The notes under the pieces are model-generated. The model had not been told where the DNA came from and did not search any database. It saw nothing but the letters and a program-made list of their open reading frames with translations. Shown one piece after another: positions 2,136-54,481 of a stretch of DNA of 56,043 nt; the first letter of the stretch is position 1, and each line of letters opens with the position of its first letter. This stretch comes from DHVE2 group archaeon (lineage in GTDB: Archaea > Thermoplasmatota > Thermoplasmata > Thermoplasmatales > Aciduliprofundaceae), in assembly GCA_015523125.1 (NCBI GenBank), contig WAKX01000013.1, positions 1 to 56,043 on the forward strand, written 5' to 3'. The translations under genes and the position numbers were made by a program.

Positions 2136-3347
2136 ATGGAAGGTCAAAACAGACTCGATTGGGCCTATGCACATATGGACGTAATCCAGAAAATCAGGGA
2201 GAGATTCCTCAAAGAGAAACCGTTTGAAGGTCTGAAAATTGGTATGGCTCTACATGTCGAGGCGAAAACCGGAATTTTAGCTTTGACTCTACGAGACGGA
2301 GGCGCAAACGTACGCTTAGCCTCATGCAATCCCCTGAGCACCGATGATTCCGTTGTTGAAGCTTTGCGAGAAAGAGGTCTAGAGGTGTATGCGAAGAAGG
2401 GAGAAACGAGGGAAGAATATTACGAAAACCTGCACAACGTGCTCGAAATGGAGCCGGATATAATAATTGACGACGGGGGAGATTTGACAACCCTGCTTCA
2501 CACTTCATACTCGCATCTTCCAATCATAGGGGGTAACGAAGAGACAACCACCGGAGTGCTTCGTCTGAATGTCATGGAGAGAAAAGGAGTTCTTAGATTT
2601 CCGATGTTCGATGTGAACGATGCCAAGATGAAACATCTCTTCGACAATCGATACGGCACTGGACAGAGTACTTTAGGTGGAATCATGAGCGCCACTAATC
2701 TCAGCATAGCTGGTAAAATAGCGGTGGTCGCCGGCTACGGCTGGTGCGGTCGGGGAATAGCAATGAGGCTTAGAGGAATGGGTGCAAATGTAATTGTCAC
2801 CGAGATTGATCCTGTGAAGGCCATAGAAGCGCGCATGGATGGTTTTCGAGTAATGCCAATGATTGACGCAATAAAAGAAGCGGAGTTGGTAATAACGGCG
2901 ACGGGAATGAAGGATATCGTTAGAAAAGAACATATTATGGATGCGAAGAACGGATGCATATTCGCAAATGCGGGGCACTTCGACAACGAGATTTCAAAAA
3001 AGGCGTTGGAGGAATTGGCAAAGGGAAAGAGAGAGATAAGAAAATTCGTGGAAGAATACGATTTTGGAAACAAAAAGCTCTATCTGTTGGGCGATGGACG
3101 TCTCATAAATTTAGTGGCCGGGCAGGGGCATCCTGTGGAGATAATGGACATGAGCTTTGCCATTCAGGCGCTTACTGCTGAGTACATTGCGAAAAATCAT
3201 GAAAAGTTAGAGCCGAGGGTTTATGCGGTTCCAGAAAAAATCGATAATGAAGTTGCCTGGCTCAAGCTTCAAGCAATGGGTGTGAAAATAGATGAACTAA
3301 CCGATGAGCAGAAGAGGTACCTGGAAGAGTGGCAGGAGGGCACGTGA
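2136..3347 (+). CDS. ahcY: S-adenosylhomocysteine hydrolase
   Basis: This 403-residue enzyme splits S-adenosylhomocysteine to adenosine and homocysteine, relieving product inhibition of methyltransferases. Visible family blocks are the N-terminal Leu-His-Val-Glu-Ala-Lys-Thr substrate segment, Asp-Gly-Gly-Asp-Leu-Thr, Glu-Glu-Thr-Thr-Thr-Gly, Asn-Asp-Ala-Lys-Met-Lys..Asp-Asn-Arg-Tyr-Gly-Thr-Gly-Gln-Ser, the NAD-binding loop Gly-Tyr-Gly-Trp-Cys-Gly-Arg-Gly, and the closing Ala-Gly-Gln-Gly-His-Pro-Val-Glu-Ile-Met-Asp motif. The start at 2136 gives the usual archaeal length and is leaderless relative to a TATA-like box at 2109-2115. An in-frame ATG-like start 30 bases earlier would add residues not seen in the family. 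Confidence 0.96.
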   Translation: MEGQNRLDWAYAHMDVIQKIRERFLKEKPFEGLKIGMALHVEAKTGILALTLRDGGANVRLASCNPLSTDDSVVEALRERGLEVYAKKGETREEYYENLHNVLEMEPDIIIDDGGDLTTLLHTSYSHLPIIGGNEETTTGVLRLNVMERKGVLRFPMFDVNDAKMKHLFDNRYGTGQSTLGGIMSATNLSIAGKIAVVAGYGWCGRGIAMRLRGMGANVIVTEIDPVKAIEARMDGFRVMPMIDAIKEAELVITATGMKDIVRKEHIMDAKNGCIFANAGHFDNEISKKALEELAKGKREIRKFVEEYDFGNKKLYLLGDGRLINLVAGQGHPVEIMDMSFAIQALTAEYIAKNHEKLEPRVYAVPEKIDNEVAWLKLQAMGVKIDELTDEQKRYLEEWQEGT

Positions 3348-50202: not shown

Positions 50203-51018
50203 TCACCCAATTTTTCCTTTTGTGCCACAATATGGACATTGAACGGTTACAGGCAATTTAGACATGTCAACATCAACCTTAAACTCATTGCCGCAATTTG
50301 GACATTTGATAGTGACCTTCTTTATGCGCCCCTCCTCTTCTTTTTTCTCTTCTTTCTTCTCTTCATTGGGCTTTTTCTCTGGGATTTTCTTTTCAACTTT
50401 GCTCTTAGCTTTACTTTCCTCTGGAGTGCTTACGTATATGAAGGATGCGAGAAGAATTAGAATTGTGGAGAGCATAGCCATTCCGAATCCCCAATCTAAC
50501 CCGGAGCTTAGAACTCCGTCCATGGTGAATACCTTCCCTCCGTACATGTCCAAATTGGATATGCCTGCCATCTGCATATCCGCGGTTAGAGCGTCTTGAT
50601 ACATCAGCAAGAAAATGAGAATGCTGCCCACTATAATCATGGCCGCCAAGAAAGATAGAATATATGCTATTTTTTTGGCTCCGAAAGCCATTATTACCCC
50701 CACCGCTACAAACACGGTAAAATTCACTAAGTAGAAGTACCAGATGAAGCTGAAAATTGTGAGGCGGTTACCCACGGGGGGCATGTTTCCAAGGGTGGTG
50801 TTATTCGATGAAAAATTGGAGTTCACCATGAGAAATGATGCGTAACTGCTATTGTCCTCGTAGTTGAACCATGTGCCAAAAGGACTCATGGATTCGGATA
50901 CTCTTAGAGAATCGTTGTATGATGAAAAGTTCAGAGTATGCCATGGCATTATGGAAGAAAGCAAATATACAGCAACCCCCGCGATAAGTAAGAGATGTGC
51001 AATTTTTGAAATTTGCAT
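50203..51018 (-). CDS. Four-TM protein with C-terminal zinc ribbon, first gene of the archaellum operon
   Basis: This 271-residue protein has membrane helices at about 7-24, 85-112, 116-140 and 176-196. An external loop between helices 1 and 2 is rich in Asn-x-Ser/Thr. The Lys/Glu-rich cytoplasmic linker is followed by a zinc ribbon Cys239-x2-Cys242 and Cys261-x2-Cys264. I know no archaellum component of this type. The upstream archaellin's ribosome site overlaps its stop, so it is co-transcribed. A TATA-like box at 51042-51050 makes its ATG nearly leaderless. It might be a membrane-bound regulator or an assembly factor. Confidence 0.82.
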   Translation of the reverse strand: MQISKIAHLLLIAGVAVYLLSSIMPWHTLNFSSYNDSLRVSESMSPFGTWFNYEDNSSYASFLMVNSNFSSNNTTLGNMPPVGNRLTIFSFIWYFYLVNFTVFVAVGVIMAFGAKKIAYILSFLAAMIIVGSILIFLLMYQDALTADMQMAGISNLDMYGGKVFTMDGVLSSGLDWGFGMAMLSTILILLASFIYVSTPEESKAKSKVEKKIPEKKPNEEKKEEKKEEEGRIKKVTIKCPNCGNEFKVDVDMSKLPVTVQCPYCGTKGKIG

Positions 51019-51041
51019 GCTTAAATCCTATATGCCCTCAT

Positions 51042-51050
51042 AATTATAAA
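51042..51050 (-). promoter_or_regulatory. TATA-like box for the archaellum operon
   Basis: The minus-strand reading is TTTATAATT, centred about 28 bases before the ATG at 51018. It is the only good promoter-like signal found upstream of the arl genes. The hef box (51086-51095) faces the other way 40 bases off. Confidence 0.5.
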
Positions 51051-51085
51051 GTTTTTGGTTTTATTCCCTCGGCAGGTATCCAGAA

Positions 51086-51095
51086 ATATTTAAAT
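51086..51095 (+). promoter_or_regulatory. TATA-like box for hef
   Basis: ATATTTAAAT is centred 26 bases before GTG 51117 and supports that GTG as a leaderless start. Confidence 0.55.
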
Positions 51096-51116
51096 CAGTT
51101 TAGCCGATATCTTCCC

Positions 51117-53396
51117 GTGATTTCGCACCCGTTGATAAAGGAGAATGCCATAGACGAGAGGGAGTATCAGGTTAAGATTGCAAAGTCATGCCTGAAGGGA
51201 AACACGTTGGTTGTTCTTCCTACCGGATTGGGGAAAACGATAATTGCTATTCTCCTCATGGCCGAGGTTCTCCACAGAAAAGGTGGAAAGATTCTATTTT
51301 TAGCGCCCACGAAGCCCCTGGTGGAGCAGCACGCGAGAAGCGTAAAATCTCTTATGAATGTGAACCCAGAAGATGTAGCGGTGTTCACAGGGGAGGTGAA
51401 GAAGAAAAACAGAGAGGAGAGGTGGAAGGACGCCAAGATAATAATCTCCACCCCGCAGGTTATTCAGAATGATTTGATATCGGGGAATATAAATTTAGAT
51501 GGGGTGAATTTAGTCATTTTCGACGAAGCCCATCGCGCGGTGGGCAATTACGCTTATGTGTACATTGCAGGGGAATACAGAAAAAAGAAAGACCATTTAA
51601 TTCTCGCAATCACGGCATCACCGGGGGGCAAGGAAGAGAAGATAATGGAAATAATCGAAAATTTAGGCATAGAGAACGTGGAAATCAGAACGGACGACGA
51701 CCCGGATGTGAAGCCCTACATCAAAGAGGTGAAAATAAGGATAATCGAGTTACCAATGCCGAAAGAGTTCAAAGAGCTGTACGCGAAGGTGAAAAGTCTT
51801 TACGAAGATATAATTGCCGAGCTGAGAAAATATGGATTATTCTTAACAATAAAGAGAGTTTCGAGGAAGGACATACTCATGGAGCAAAGAGCCGTGCAGG
51901 ATAAGATAAGCGAGGGAAAGAGCGAGTACTATCAGGCCGCGATGCTTTTGAGCATGGCAATCAAAATAGATTATTCCCTCGAGTACTTGGAGACTCAGGG
52001 CTTCGACGCGTTTTACAATTATCTGATGAAGATAATAGAGGAGGGGAACAGCAAGGGCGGGGGCAAGGCGGCCAGAACGCTCGTTCGGCATGAGAAATTC
52101 GTGGATATCGTGAAAACGGCTCGAACTCTGAAGGAAAATATTGAAAATGTGGAGAACCCGAAGCTAAACGCTTTGGGAACTTTGCTGAGAAAAAAATTCG
52201 CTGATAATCCGGATTTAAAGGTAATCGTGTTCACCCATTACCGCGAAACCGCGAGAATAGTTGAAGAGTATCTAAAAGATTACGAATCCATAAGGGCCGT
52301 GCGCTTCGTGGGACAGGCGAATAAGGGCGAGGATAAGGGCTTGAATCAGAAGCAGCAGGTTGAAATTATAAAGAAATTCAGGGAAGGGGAGTACAATGTG
52401 CTCATTGCCACAAGCGTGGCCGAGGAGGGCTTAGATATTCCCGCAACGGATATGGTTGTGTTCTACGAACCAGTACCCTCTGAGATAAGAACTATACAGA
52501 GGAAAGGAAGAACAGGGAGAACGAATTTCGGAGAGGTGTATATTTTGAGCATCAAAGGCACGAGGGACATCGCGTACCTTTGGTCTTCACGAAATAAAGA
52601 GAAGAAGATGAAATCGGAGATGAAATGGTTGCGCAGATTTCTGTCGGAGAAGATAAGCGGGGAGCAGAGGGAAATATTCGAAGAAGAGGAGAAGAGGGAA
52701 GAAAAGAGGGTGGATGTGAAAGGCCAGCTCACTCTGTTTGAATTTGAAAATGAGGTGAAGAAGGAGAAGATTCACGTGGACACCCGGGAGTTCAGGAGCG
52801 AGGTGGTTAAGATATTAGCAGAAAATTTCAATGTTGTGCCCGTGCAACTTGCAGTGGGAGATTATGTCATCTCGGACAGGGTAGCAATCGAGAGAAAAAC
52901 CACCACCGATTTTTTAGAATCGATAAGGGATGGCAGGCTCTTCGAGCAGATTAAAAATTTGAAGAGCAATTACGAGAACGCGGTTCTTATAATTGAGGGC
53001 GAATCTCTTTTTTCTTCGGGATTCCATGACAACGCGATATACGGAGCTTTGGCTTCCATTTTGGTGGATTTCAATGTGCCGGTGATTTTCACAAAGAATC
53101 CCCGGGAGACAGCGAAGATGATACAAGCTCTATACAATCGTGAGAAGAAGGAAAAAAGAGAGGTATCTCTGAGAAAAGAGAAGAAGGCCATGACAATGGA
53201 TGAAAGGCAGAGGTTCATAGTGGAATCCTTGCCAAATGTTTCCGCAAAGCTATCCCAGAGGCTTTTAGAGCATTTCGGAAGCGTTAAGGATGTCATAAAC
53301 GCAGAGGTCGGGGAGCTCATAATGGTGAAGGGCATCGGGAGAAAAACGGCGGAAGAGATTCACGAAGTGGTGAATAAGAAGTACCGGAAAAAGTGA
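51117..53396 (+). CDS. hef: Hef helicase/XPF-type nuclease
   Basis: This 759-residue enzyme processes stalled forks and branched DNA. The N-terminal SF2 helicase has Pro-Thr-Gly-Leu-Gly-Lys-Thr at 35-41, DEAH at 136-139, Thr-Ala-Ser-Pro-Gly and motif VI Gln-Arg-Lys-Gly-Arg-Thr-Gly-Arg. The XPF nuclease core has Gly-Asp-Tyr-Val-Ile and Glu-Arg-Lys-Thr-Thr-Thr-Asp near 592-598 (the ERKxxxD motif intact). Tandem helix-hairpin-helix motifs end the protein (Val-Lys-Gly-Ile-Gly-Arg-Lys-Thr-Ala). The GTG start at 51117 was chosen because it is leaderless behind a TATA-like box and removes about 40 residues that do not look like the family. Confidence 0.95.
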   Translation: MISHPLIKENAIDEREYQVKIAKSCLKGNTLVVLPTGLGKTIIAILLMAEVLHRKGGKILFLAPTKPLVEQHARSVKSLMNVNPEDVAVFTGEVKKKNREERWKDAKIIISTPQVIQNDLISGNINLDGVNLVIFDEAHRAVGNYAYVYIAGEYRKKKDHLILAITASPGGKEEKIMEIIENLGIENVEIRTDDDPDVKPYIKEVKIRIIELPMPKEFKELYAKVKSLYEDIIAELRKYGLFLTIKRVSRKDILMEQRAVQDKISEGKSEYYQAAMLLSMAIKIDYSLEYLETQGFDAFYNYLMKIIEEGNSKGGGKAARTLVRHEKFVDIVKTARTLKENIENVENPKLNALGTLLRKKFADNPDLKVIVFTHYRETARIVEEYLKDYESIRAVRFVGQANKGEDKGLNQKQQVEIIKKFREGEYNVLIATSVAEEGLDIPATDMVVFYEPVPSEIRTIQRKGRTGRTNFGEVYILSIKGTRDIAYLWSSRNKEKKMKSEMKWLRRFLSEKISGEQREIFEEEEKREEKRVDVKGQLTLFEFENEVKKEKIHVDTREFRSEVVKILAENFNVVPVQLAVGDYVISDRVAIERKTTTDFLESIRDGRLFEQIKNLKSNYENAVLIIEGESLFSSGFHDNAIYGALASILVDFNVPVIFTKNPRETAKMIQALYNREKKEKREVSLRKEKKAMTMDERQRFIVESLPNVSAKLSQRLLEHFGSVKDVINAEVGELIMVKGIGRKTAEEIHEVVNKKYRKK

Positions 53397-53420: not shown

Positions 53421-53430
53421 CATTATATAT
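53421..53430 (+). promoter_or_regulatory. TATA-like box upstream of the riboswitch
   Basis: CATTATATAT is centred about 26 bases before 53452, so the transcript would begin almost exactly at the aptamer's 5' strand (53456). Confidence 0.5.
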
Positions 53431-53455
53431 GAAATTAAAAATTCACCCCTGCTTC

Positions 53456-53521
53456 GGGTGATGGCGTCCACCCAAAAGTGCCGCAAGGCTGATGACGCCT
53501 TTTCGCAAGAGGTGACGCCAG
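53456..53521 (+). promoter_or_regulatory. Fluoride (crcB) riboswitch: aptamer plus ribosome-site expression platform
   Basis: The aptamer is 53456-53499. GGGTG (53456-53460) pairs with CACCC (53469-53473). GGCGTC (53463-53468) pairs with GACGCC (53494-53499). GCC-GCAA-GGC (53480-53489) is the small stem-loop. The conserved GGTGATGG and GGCTGATGAC blocks of the crcB motif are both present. Downstream, GGTGACGCC (53511-53519) repeats the closing-stem strand and overlaps the ribosome binding site GAGGTGA (53509-53515). It can pair with 53463-53472 (nine pairs, one bulged C), which would hide the site when the aptamer is not folded. Predicted behaviour: fluoride turns translation on. Confidence 0.85.
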
Positions 53522-54481
53522 ATGATCTCCGAGATAATAGCAGGTTTAGCGCAGGTATTGACCGTGTTACTCCTTTCTCCGTTAATGGTAGGCATCCTGA
53601 AGAAATGGGAAGCTAAATTTGAGTCCAGAAAGGGTATATCAATTTTCCAGCCGTACTACGACCTCGCCAAGTTCTTCAGAAAGGAGATTGTGGTACCAGA
53701 AGATGTGGGTTCTCTTTTTATCTTGGCTCCCATGCTCTCATTCACCGCGTACCTCATTCTCCCATGGGTTGTGCCCATAGTGTTCGGCGCCCCCTCGTGG
53801 TTCGCCCCGCTGGTCGATTTCCTTGGTGGAGCGTTCTTATTCGGATTTGCCTCCTTCTTCTCCGTAATAGGAACTGAAAAAACTGGCTCGTATTACACGG
53901 GCATAGGCGCCACAAGAGGAGTTACATTCGGCGCCTTCGCCGAGCCCGTGCTTATCACCGTTTTCTTCGGAGTTGCTCTAATCACTGGAACGAATAATCC
54001 ATTCCTGACGAATGAAACGTTGAGGAATAATCTCTCGTGGATGCTCTCCCCAACGCATCTTCTCCTCATAGCTGCGTTCTTCCTTCTTCTTCTCTTCGAT
54101 ACAGGAAAATTGCCCATAGAGAGCCACAGCATGGGGGAACTGGGAATGATCGGGCAGGGAATGGGTTTGGAATACTCAGGGCCCCTGTATGCGCTGAAAT
54201 CATGGGGCTCATACATGAAGCAATTCATTCTTTTTTCCGTGTTCATCAACGTATTCGCGATGCCGTGGTTCATCCCCCTTCAGGTTAATGCACTCACCAT
54301 TCTTTATGGCATCGCTTTGCTCTTTGTGAAAATGCTCGTTGTTATATTCGCCATCGTTTTGGTCGAGGTAACTGTGGCGAAGATTCGGCTGTTCAAAATC
54401 ATTGATTATCTCACCTTCTCGTATCTCACCGCGCTTTTAGCGGTGATATCTTTCTTCCTGGTGGGAGGTGTGCCCCAATGA
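53522..54481 (+). CDS. hyfC: Hydrogenase-4/formate hydrogenlyase membrane subunit (HyfC/NuoH-like)
   Basis: This 319-residue protein has about eight membrane helices. It carries the NuoH/HycD family segments Lys-Gly-Ile-Ser-Ile-Phe-Gln-Pro-Tyr-Tyr-Asp-Leu-Ala-Lys-Phe-Phe-Arg-Lys-Glu near residue 37 and a loop Glu-Ser-His-Ser-Met-Gly-Glu-Leu-Gly-Met near 200 that corresponds to the acidic quinone/hydrogenase-facing loop. This subunit couples a hydrogenase arm to ion-pumping subunits. It is the first gene after the fluoride riboswitch, and its stop overlaps the next start by 4 bases. Confidence 0.88.
   Translation: MISEIIAGLAQVLTVLLLSPLMVGILKKWEAKFESRKGISIFQPYYDLAKFFRKEIVVPEDVGSLFILAPMLSFTAYLILPWVVPIVFGAPSWFAPLVDFLGGAFLFGFASFFSVIGTEKTGSYYTGIGATRGVTFGAFAEPVLITVFFGVALITGTNNPFLTNETLRNNLSWMLSPTHLLLIAAFFLLLLFDTGKLPIESHSMGELGMIGQGMGLEYSGPLYALKSWGSYMKQFILFSVFINVFAMPWFIPLQVNALTILYGIALLFVKMLVVIFAIVLVEVTVAKIRLFKIIDYLTFSYLTALLAVISFFLVGGVPQ

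Follow-up and report, generated by a model that had tools for sequence, protein, structure and literature searches.

A translational fluoride riboswitch that turns expression on probably controls a complex-I-like, ion-translocating complex of the Ehr (energy-converting hydrogenase-related) type in a DHVE2 group archaeon, where the complex would protect the cell under fluoride stress. The riboswitch lies in a contig stretch of 56,043 nucleotides (the window). Our reading builds on the riboswitch itself, the conserved pairing of its switch, the loss of Ni ligands, the clade-wide linkage of riboswitch and complex, the exclusion of CrcB, and the linkage to CrcB and DUF190 in a bacterium, all computed here.

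A fluoride aptamer precedes hyfC

The Rfam model of the fluoride riboswitch (RF01734, crcB motif) matches the leader of hyfC well above its gathering score of 34 bits (E = 1.5e-8 in a search of the window; Table 1), and this match is the only one within the 1.54-Mb assembly. A Hef nuclease gene (50997-53396) lies upstream, and 13 bases separate the 3' end of the aptamer from the hyfC ATG at 53522. The TATA-like box would place the transcript start near the aptamer. Across 25 aptamers located before hyfC genes, five of the six pseudoknot pairs have changed on both sides and 98.7% of the cells of this helix are paired; for the structure as a whole, 99.1% of the cells pair, versus 86.4% in shuffles. 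A preliminary description of the window had recognized a crcB aptamer here and proposed scoring it with the Rfam covariance model; the score and the pseudoknot covariation bear out that recognition. The start that it gave, 53456, is that of a genuine stem, but the aptamer itself begins about 8 nt earlier.

Table 1. Features of the hyfC leader and of the operon start, in window coordinates
Feature	Position	Strand	Basis
TATA-like box TTATATAT, AT-rich, putative	53423..53430	+	read from sequence
Fluoride riboswitch aptamer, RF01734	53448..53508	+	42.8 bits vs cutoff 34
Aptamer stem	53456-53460/53469-53473	+	read from sequence
GGCGTC, 5' pseudoknot strand, also candidate RBS-blocking strand	53463..53468	+	covariation (25 relatives), fold
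Small aptamer hairpin GCC-GCAA-GGC	53480..53489	+	Rfam alignment
GACGCC, 3' pseudoknot strand of the aptamer	53494..53499	+	covariation
Shine-Dalgarno GAGGTGA overlapping repeat TGACGCC; complementary to 53463-53472	53509..53519	+	fold; family leaders
hyfC/NuoH-like membrane subunit, 319 aa	53522..54481	+	PF00146, E 1.2e-31
hyfE-like membrane subunit, 208 aa	54478..55104	+	NCBIfam hydrogenase 4 membrane subunit (best match; E 1.8e-13, score under the cutoff)
hyfF-like antiporter subunit, truncated at the contig end	55101..56043	+	PF00361, E 1.5e-23

Anatomy of the switch at the ribosome binding site

The GGCGTC strand of the aptamer has two partners: the GACGCC that completes the pseudoknot, and a second GACGCC at the ribosome binding site (RBS; 53514-53519). 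The latter is part of a TGACGCC (53513-53519) that overlaps the Shine-Dalgarno AGGTGA. In pseudoknot-free folding, the pairing of RBS and aptamer is the minimum-energy fold of positions 53448-53540 (-29.8 kcal/mol), with a z of -1.8 against shuffles that is modest for the window leader taken alone. Each of the 23 leaders with a fluoride riboswitch in the window's family (18 genomes; leaders taken by coordinates) has complementarity to the RBS, with a mean z of about -2.8. This complementarity occurs in two sequence versions, GGCGUC/GACGCC before hyfC and GGGGCCCACC/GGUGGUCCC before a second gene, and is also visible by eye in a Thermococci-labelled relative (L030) and in a more distant archaeon (L110). 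The repeat over the RBS and its capacity to pair with the aptamer had been pointed out in the preliminary description, and both are present as claimed.

Fluoride-ON translational control, which that description had also proposed, is well supported by the anatomy of the leader, namely the aptamer combined with a conserved RBS pairing, and we infer the direction of switching as follows. Without fluoride, the aptamer strand GGCGUCCACC would pair with GGUGACGCC at the RBS and block translation of hyfC. With fluoride, GGCGUC would be held in the pseudoknot by the upstream GACGCC and the RBS would be freed, so that the six-gene operon hyfC-E-F-large-small-hyfB could be made. Translational forms of the fluoride riboswitch are known from Pseudomonas syringae and Burkholderia pseudomallei (PMC13273304). 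The window RNA resembles the RF01734 family in its sequence, its pseudoknot and a score over the family cutoff; it differs from known RF01734 switches in its platform, a repeat of its own pseudoknot strand placed on the RBS, as well as in its archaeal host and its Ehr operon target.

The operon encodes an Ehr complex

The window stops inside hyfF at the contig end, and most of the operon lies outside it. The large-subunit, small-subunit and hyfB genes of this genome are on another contig (L137 on G000:C3; large subunit, 2230-3276); judging by the gene order in relatives, that large subunit would belong to the window operon. The order hyfC-hyfE-hyfF-large-small-hyfB is kept in all modules of the clade with enough sequence, and the encoded families are PF00346 (large subunit), PF01058, two PF00361 subunits and PF00146. 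No homology to CrcB or CLC was found among the operon proteins: their Pfam matches are all of complex-I type, with no CRCB or Voltage_CLC match, and HyfE has no Pfam match. Likewise, the six-gene operons of the relatives contained no formate dehydrogenase gene. In two relatives of family f1, the operon is followed by radical SAM and UbiA genes.

The large subunit carries a RITGQFS-type sequence at the position of the hydrogenase RxCGxC motif and FTDFPFALDSFG at that of DPCxxC. CxxC is missing from both Ni sites in all 38 distinct modules, the window genome's own included; a CKEC near the N-terminus of one large subunit (L031) is unrelated to these sites. A hydrogenase-type homologue from a related genome (L135 in G001), used as a control, keeps both motifs (CGIC and CMSC) and has no riboswitch. 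The archaeal small subunits retain the N-terminal and proximal 4Fe-4S motifs; an apparent loss of Fe-S cysteines in family f5 was rejected as a trimming artefact, leaving only two bacterial copies (genome G401, below) without cysteines.

The loss of the Ni ligands means that the complex is neither a hydrogenase nor a formate hydrogenlyase. Judged by sequence, it is an Ehr complex under the published definition, since it unites antiporter-like subunits with large and small subunits that resemble those of hydrogenases but have no Ni ligands. The Hyf-type hydrogenase that the preliminary description had named as the target is thus abandoned, since both [NiFe] ligand motifs are missing in every clade homologue examined and the relatives' operons hold no formate dehydrogenase. 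The formate hydrogenlyase association that it mentioned is in print. Weinberg et al. (2010) include "formate hydrogen lyase" in their list of crcB-motif genes (PMC2864571), and a 2024 review repeats the association and gives it a role in fermentation (PMC11139923). The association is therefore already published; the identity as Ehr differs from the published label. The formate hydrogenlyase cases in the Weinberg and Baker lists are likely these operons, and for this operon type the label is wrong.

The clade shares with formate hydrogenlyase and Hyf (group 4 [NiFe]) homologous HyfC, HyfE, HyfF, HyfB and soluble subunits, but lacks RxCGxC, DPCxxC and a formate dehydrogenase gene in the operon. 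Ehr complexes have been described in Sulfobacillus, with unknown function (PMC4378227), and in Margulisbacteria (PMC6349859). The present clade is like them in combining hydrogenase-4-like membrane subunits with soluble subunits that lack Ni ligands. It is unlike the other Ehr clades examined, which have no riboswitch, in that it carries a fluoride riboswitch nearly without exception and excludes CrcB in Thermoplasmatota.

Riboswitch linkage across Thermoplasmatota

We surveyed 390 Thermoplasmatota genomes with RF01734 and a profile built from seven large subunits (A1). The resulting set comprised 49 modules, i.e., 47 profile matches of at least 280 bits and two fragments. In 38 of the 49, an RF01734 match lies 2.8-3.3 kb upstream of the large subunit on the same strand, a spacing that equals the length of hyfC, hyfE and hyfF. 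Five further modules (L120, L121, L124, L125 and L126) are linked by weak Rfam matches or by matches to our own model, R1; L125 was in the R1 training set, and its linkage rests on the weak Rfam match. The window copy is the forty-fourth. Three modules are cut by contig ends (G005, G010:C54 and G224:C23), and the genome-context check that the preliminary description had suggested thus found a riboswitch in 44 of the 46 modules with a readable upstream region.

No riboswitch was detected upstream of the remaining two. One (L122, G221:C3:128500-137000) is a full Ehr module, the second copy beside a riboswitch-linked one in the same genome; for the other (L100/L034), a riboswitch before hyfC seemed possible by eye, but no tool detected one and it was counted as absent. 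The lower-scoring homologues that we tested were free of upstream riboswitches, both at 190-280 bits (0 of 28) and below 190 bits (0 of 32). A weak RF01734 match in G319 coincides with a long open frame and is probably spurious. In a maximum-likelihood tree of 48 large subunits, the riboswitch-linked modules all lie on one side of a branch with 100/98 support, with one loss among them; they form a single clade.

Relation to CrcB and CLC exporters

CrcB (PF02537 above cutoff) occurs in none of the 46 module genomes versus 163 of the 344 others (Fisher 4e-12, uncorrected for kinship). The exclusion is partly driven by lineage, and it loses significance when family f5 is taken by itself (p = 0.12). 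CrcB and the module swap inside two genera, g24 and g1. In g24, the module is found in five species and CrcB in four others, where a riboswitch precedes it in every case (L078, L079, L090 and L182). In the window's genus, two CrcB carriers with incomplete genomes (G006 and G008) show neither module nor riboswitch. Family f1 has no CLC, and its only two CrcB genomes are both without the module.

A CLC-family protein, with the fluoride and chloride types not distinguished, is present in 36 of the 46 module genomes, and most genomes of family f2 keep one. It could be an F-/H+ antiporter, in which case exporters may not be lacking. We therefore rejected the broader statement that module genomes lack all known fluoride exporters; only the absence of CrcB stands. 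The earlier suspicion that membrane modules matter for fluoride tolerance is supported. Antiporters rank second after exporters among fluoride-riboswitch genes (PMC11139923). The complex resembles the Na+/H+ antiporters of fluoride-riboswitch regulons as an ion-moving membrane system tied to pH homeostasis, and differs from these single-protein antiporters in having multiple subunits, including Fe-S subunits in archaea.

Copies outside archaea

A Bacteroidota-labelled genome (G401) carries clusters of several fluoride riboswitches on two contigs. One contig encodes, in order, CrcB, DUF190, hyfC-E-F-large-small-hyfB, PAP2 and MFS, and within one cluster riboswitches precede both CrcB and hyfC. 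Both copies of its small subunit have zero cysteines; as two separately assembled copies agree, we consider the Fe-S sites lost.

In an Alicyclobacillus plasmid of acid mine drainage origin (L161, NZ_CP066785.1 21165-36256), a stretch of about 9 kb holds five fluoride riboswitches, one of them directly before an Ehr large-subunit gene and near CrcB, DUF190 and MutS-like genes. Here the large subunit is accompanied only by a HyfC fragment; we rejected this copy as a full module, and it is probably decayed. The same island holds CrcB-like genes, an MFS gene and a sigma-70 factor gene, the last directly behind one riboswitch. An Ehr operon on a Rhodococcus plasmid has no riboswitch.

Other genes behind fluoride riboswitches

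A second fluoride riboswitch in the window's family controls two small coiled-coil-like proteins without a Pfam match (L003-L007, L010-L012, L019, L020 and L022; L038:3684-5189). In three genomes (L038, L040 and L022), an inorganic-pyrophosphatase-like gene adjoins it on the opposite strand, and on one contig (G009:C11) about 3 kb separates an Ehr large subunit from a second-class riboswitch on the other strand. In family f2 (L176-L181), the second riboswitch precedes a pair of proteins of about 500 aa; the one tested has a MutS domain V, in agreement with the published mutS association. Dynamin-like GTPase genes follow fluoride riboswitches in two archaeal families and in the bacterial genome (L084, L088 and L033:4178-5977), an assignment confirmed by Pfam only in L033. 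Cation/proton-antiporter-like genes do so in another Thermoplasmatota family (L081 and L184).

What the complex may do under fluoride

Which ion is translocated, what donates and accepts electrons, and how the cell would gain under fluoride are matters of inference. Charged residues are conserved across 35-37 modules in HyfF (E115, E135, K190, K265, K307 and E361), HyfB (E109, E137, K182, K308 and E364) and HyfC (D92, E134 and E199; numbering of the aligned region of L042), and from what is known of complex I we take them to form the membrane ion path. Since this path and, in archaea, two Fe-S sites are kept, the complex would most likely extrude H+ or Na+ with electrons from ferredoxin. HF stress is severe for acidophiles, and in acid-living cells such extrusion would counter the acidification, and the fall in proton-motive force, that follow from HF entry. 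The bacterial module lacks the Fe-S cysteines, so not every member can work by ferredoxin-driven pumping. With the Ni ligands gone throughout and the Fe-S ligands kept in archaea and lost in the bacterium, ion movement is the common denominator, which is why we favor an ion-extruding complex. One point against ion extrusion is that a raised internal pH alone would trap more fluoride.

The most interesting rival is direct fluoride export by the complex, or a coupling of F- to the movement of H+ or Na+, as a functional replacement for CrcB/Fluc. The absence of CrcB from module genomes, the swaps under the same riboswitch within one genus, and family f1, with no CLC and with CrcB only in two module-less genomes, all fit direct export, as does the bacterium that lost its redox centres yet keeps the membrane subunits and the riboswitch. 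Moreover, at the inside-positive membrane potential of acidophiles, a CrcB/Fluc channel would hold fluoride in rather than release it. On the other hand, CrcB and the module coexist in the bacterium, a CLC persists in most f2 genomes, and fluoride transport by a complex-I or Mrp subunit is not known to us, so we regard direct export as unlikely.

A plainer rival is that the complex is an oxidoreductase of ferredoxin or another carrier, induced as a respiratory bypass because other energy-metabolism enzymes are inhibited by fluoride; its pumping would then be ordinary energy conservation. The Fe-S motifs retained in archaeal small subunits agree with such a bypass, and Mbx and other Ehr complexes are regarded as redox-driven pumps (PMC6349859). 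The loss of the Fe-S ligands in both bacterial copies speaks against it, and the exclusion of CrcB together with the CrcB/DUF190 clustering points to fluoride handling rather than general metabolism; we find such a bypass rather improbable. That a true formate hydrogenlyase or energy-converting hydrogenase switches cells to fermentative metabolism when fluoride is present, as implied by the published lists, is hardly credible despite those listings (PMC2864571, PMC11139923) and the gene-level similarity to Hyf/Hyc subunits, as it is already contradicted by the absent Ni-ligand motifs in all modules, the operon without formate dehydrogenase, and the riboswitch-free hydrogenase-type homologue of the related genome.

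Going beyond the favored ion-extruding complex, we tentatively raise the less probable idea that this single Ehr clade is a dedicated fluoride-defence machine that replaces Fluc in acid-living archaea, possibly moves fluoride, and works independently of redox chemistry in its bacterial branch. The published reading took the riboswitch-linked "formate hydrogenlyase" as a sign of a metabolic shift, and the present results correct it, as the enzyme in the modules seen cannot be a hydrogenase. The literature that we found assigns no function to Ehr complexes, and a fluoride riboswitch fixed before one of their clades would give that clade a concrete and testable one.
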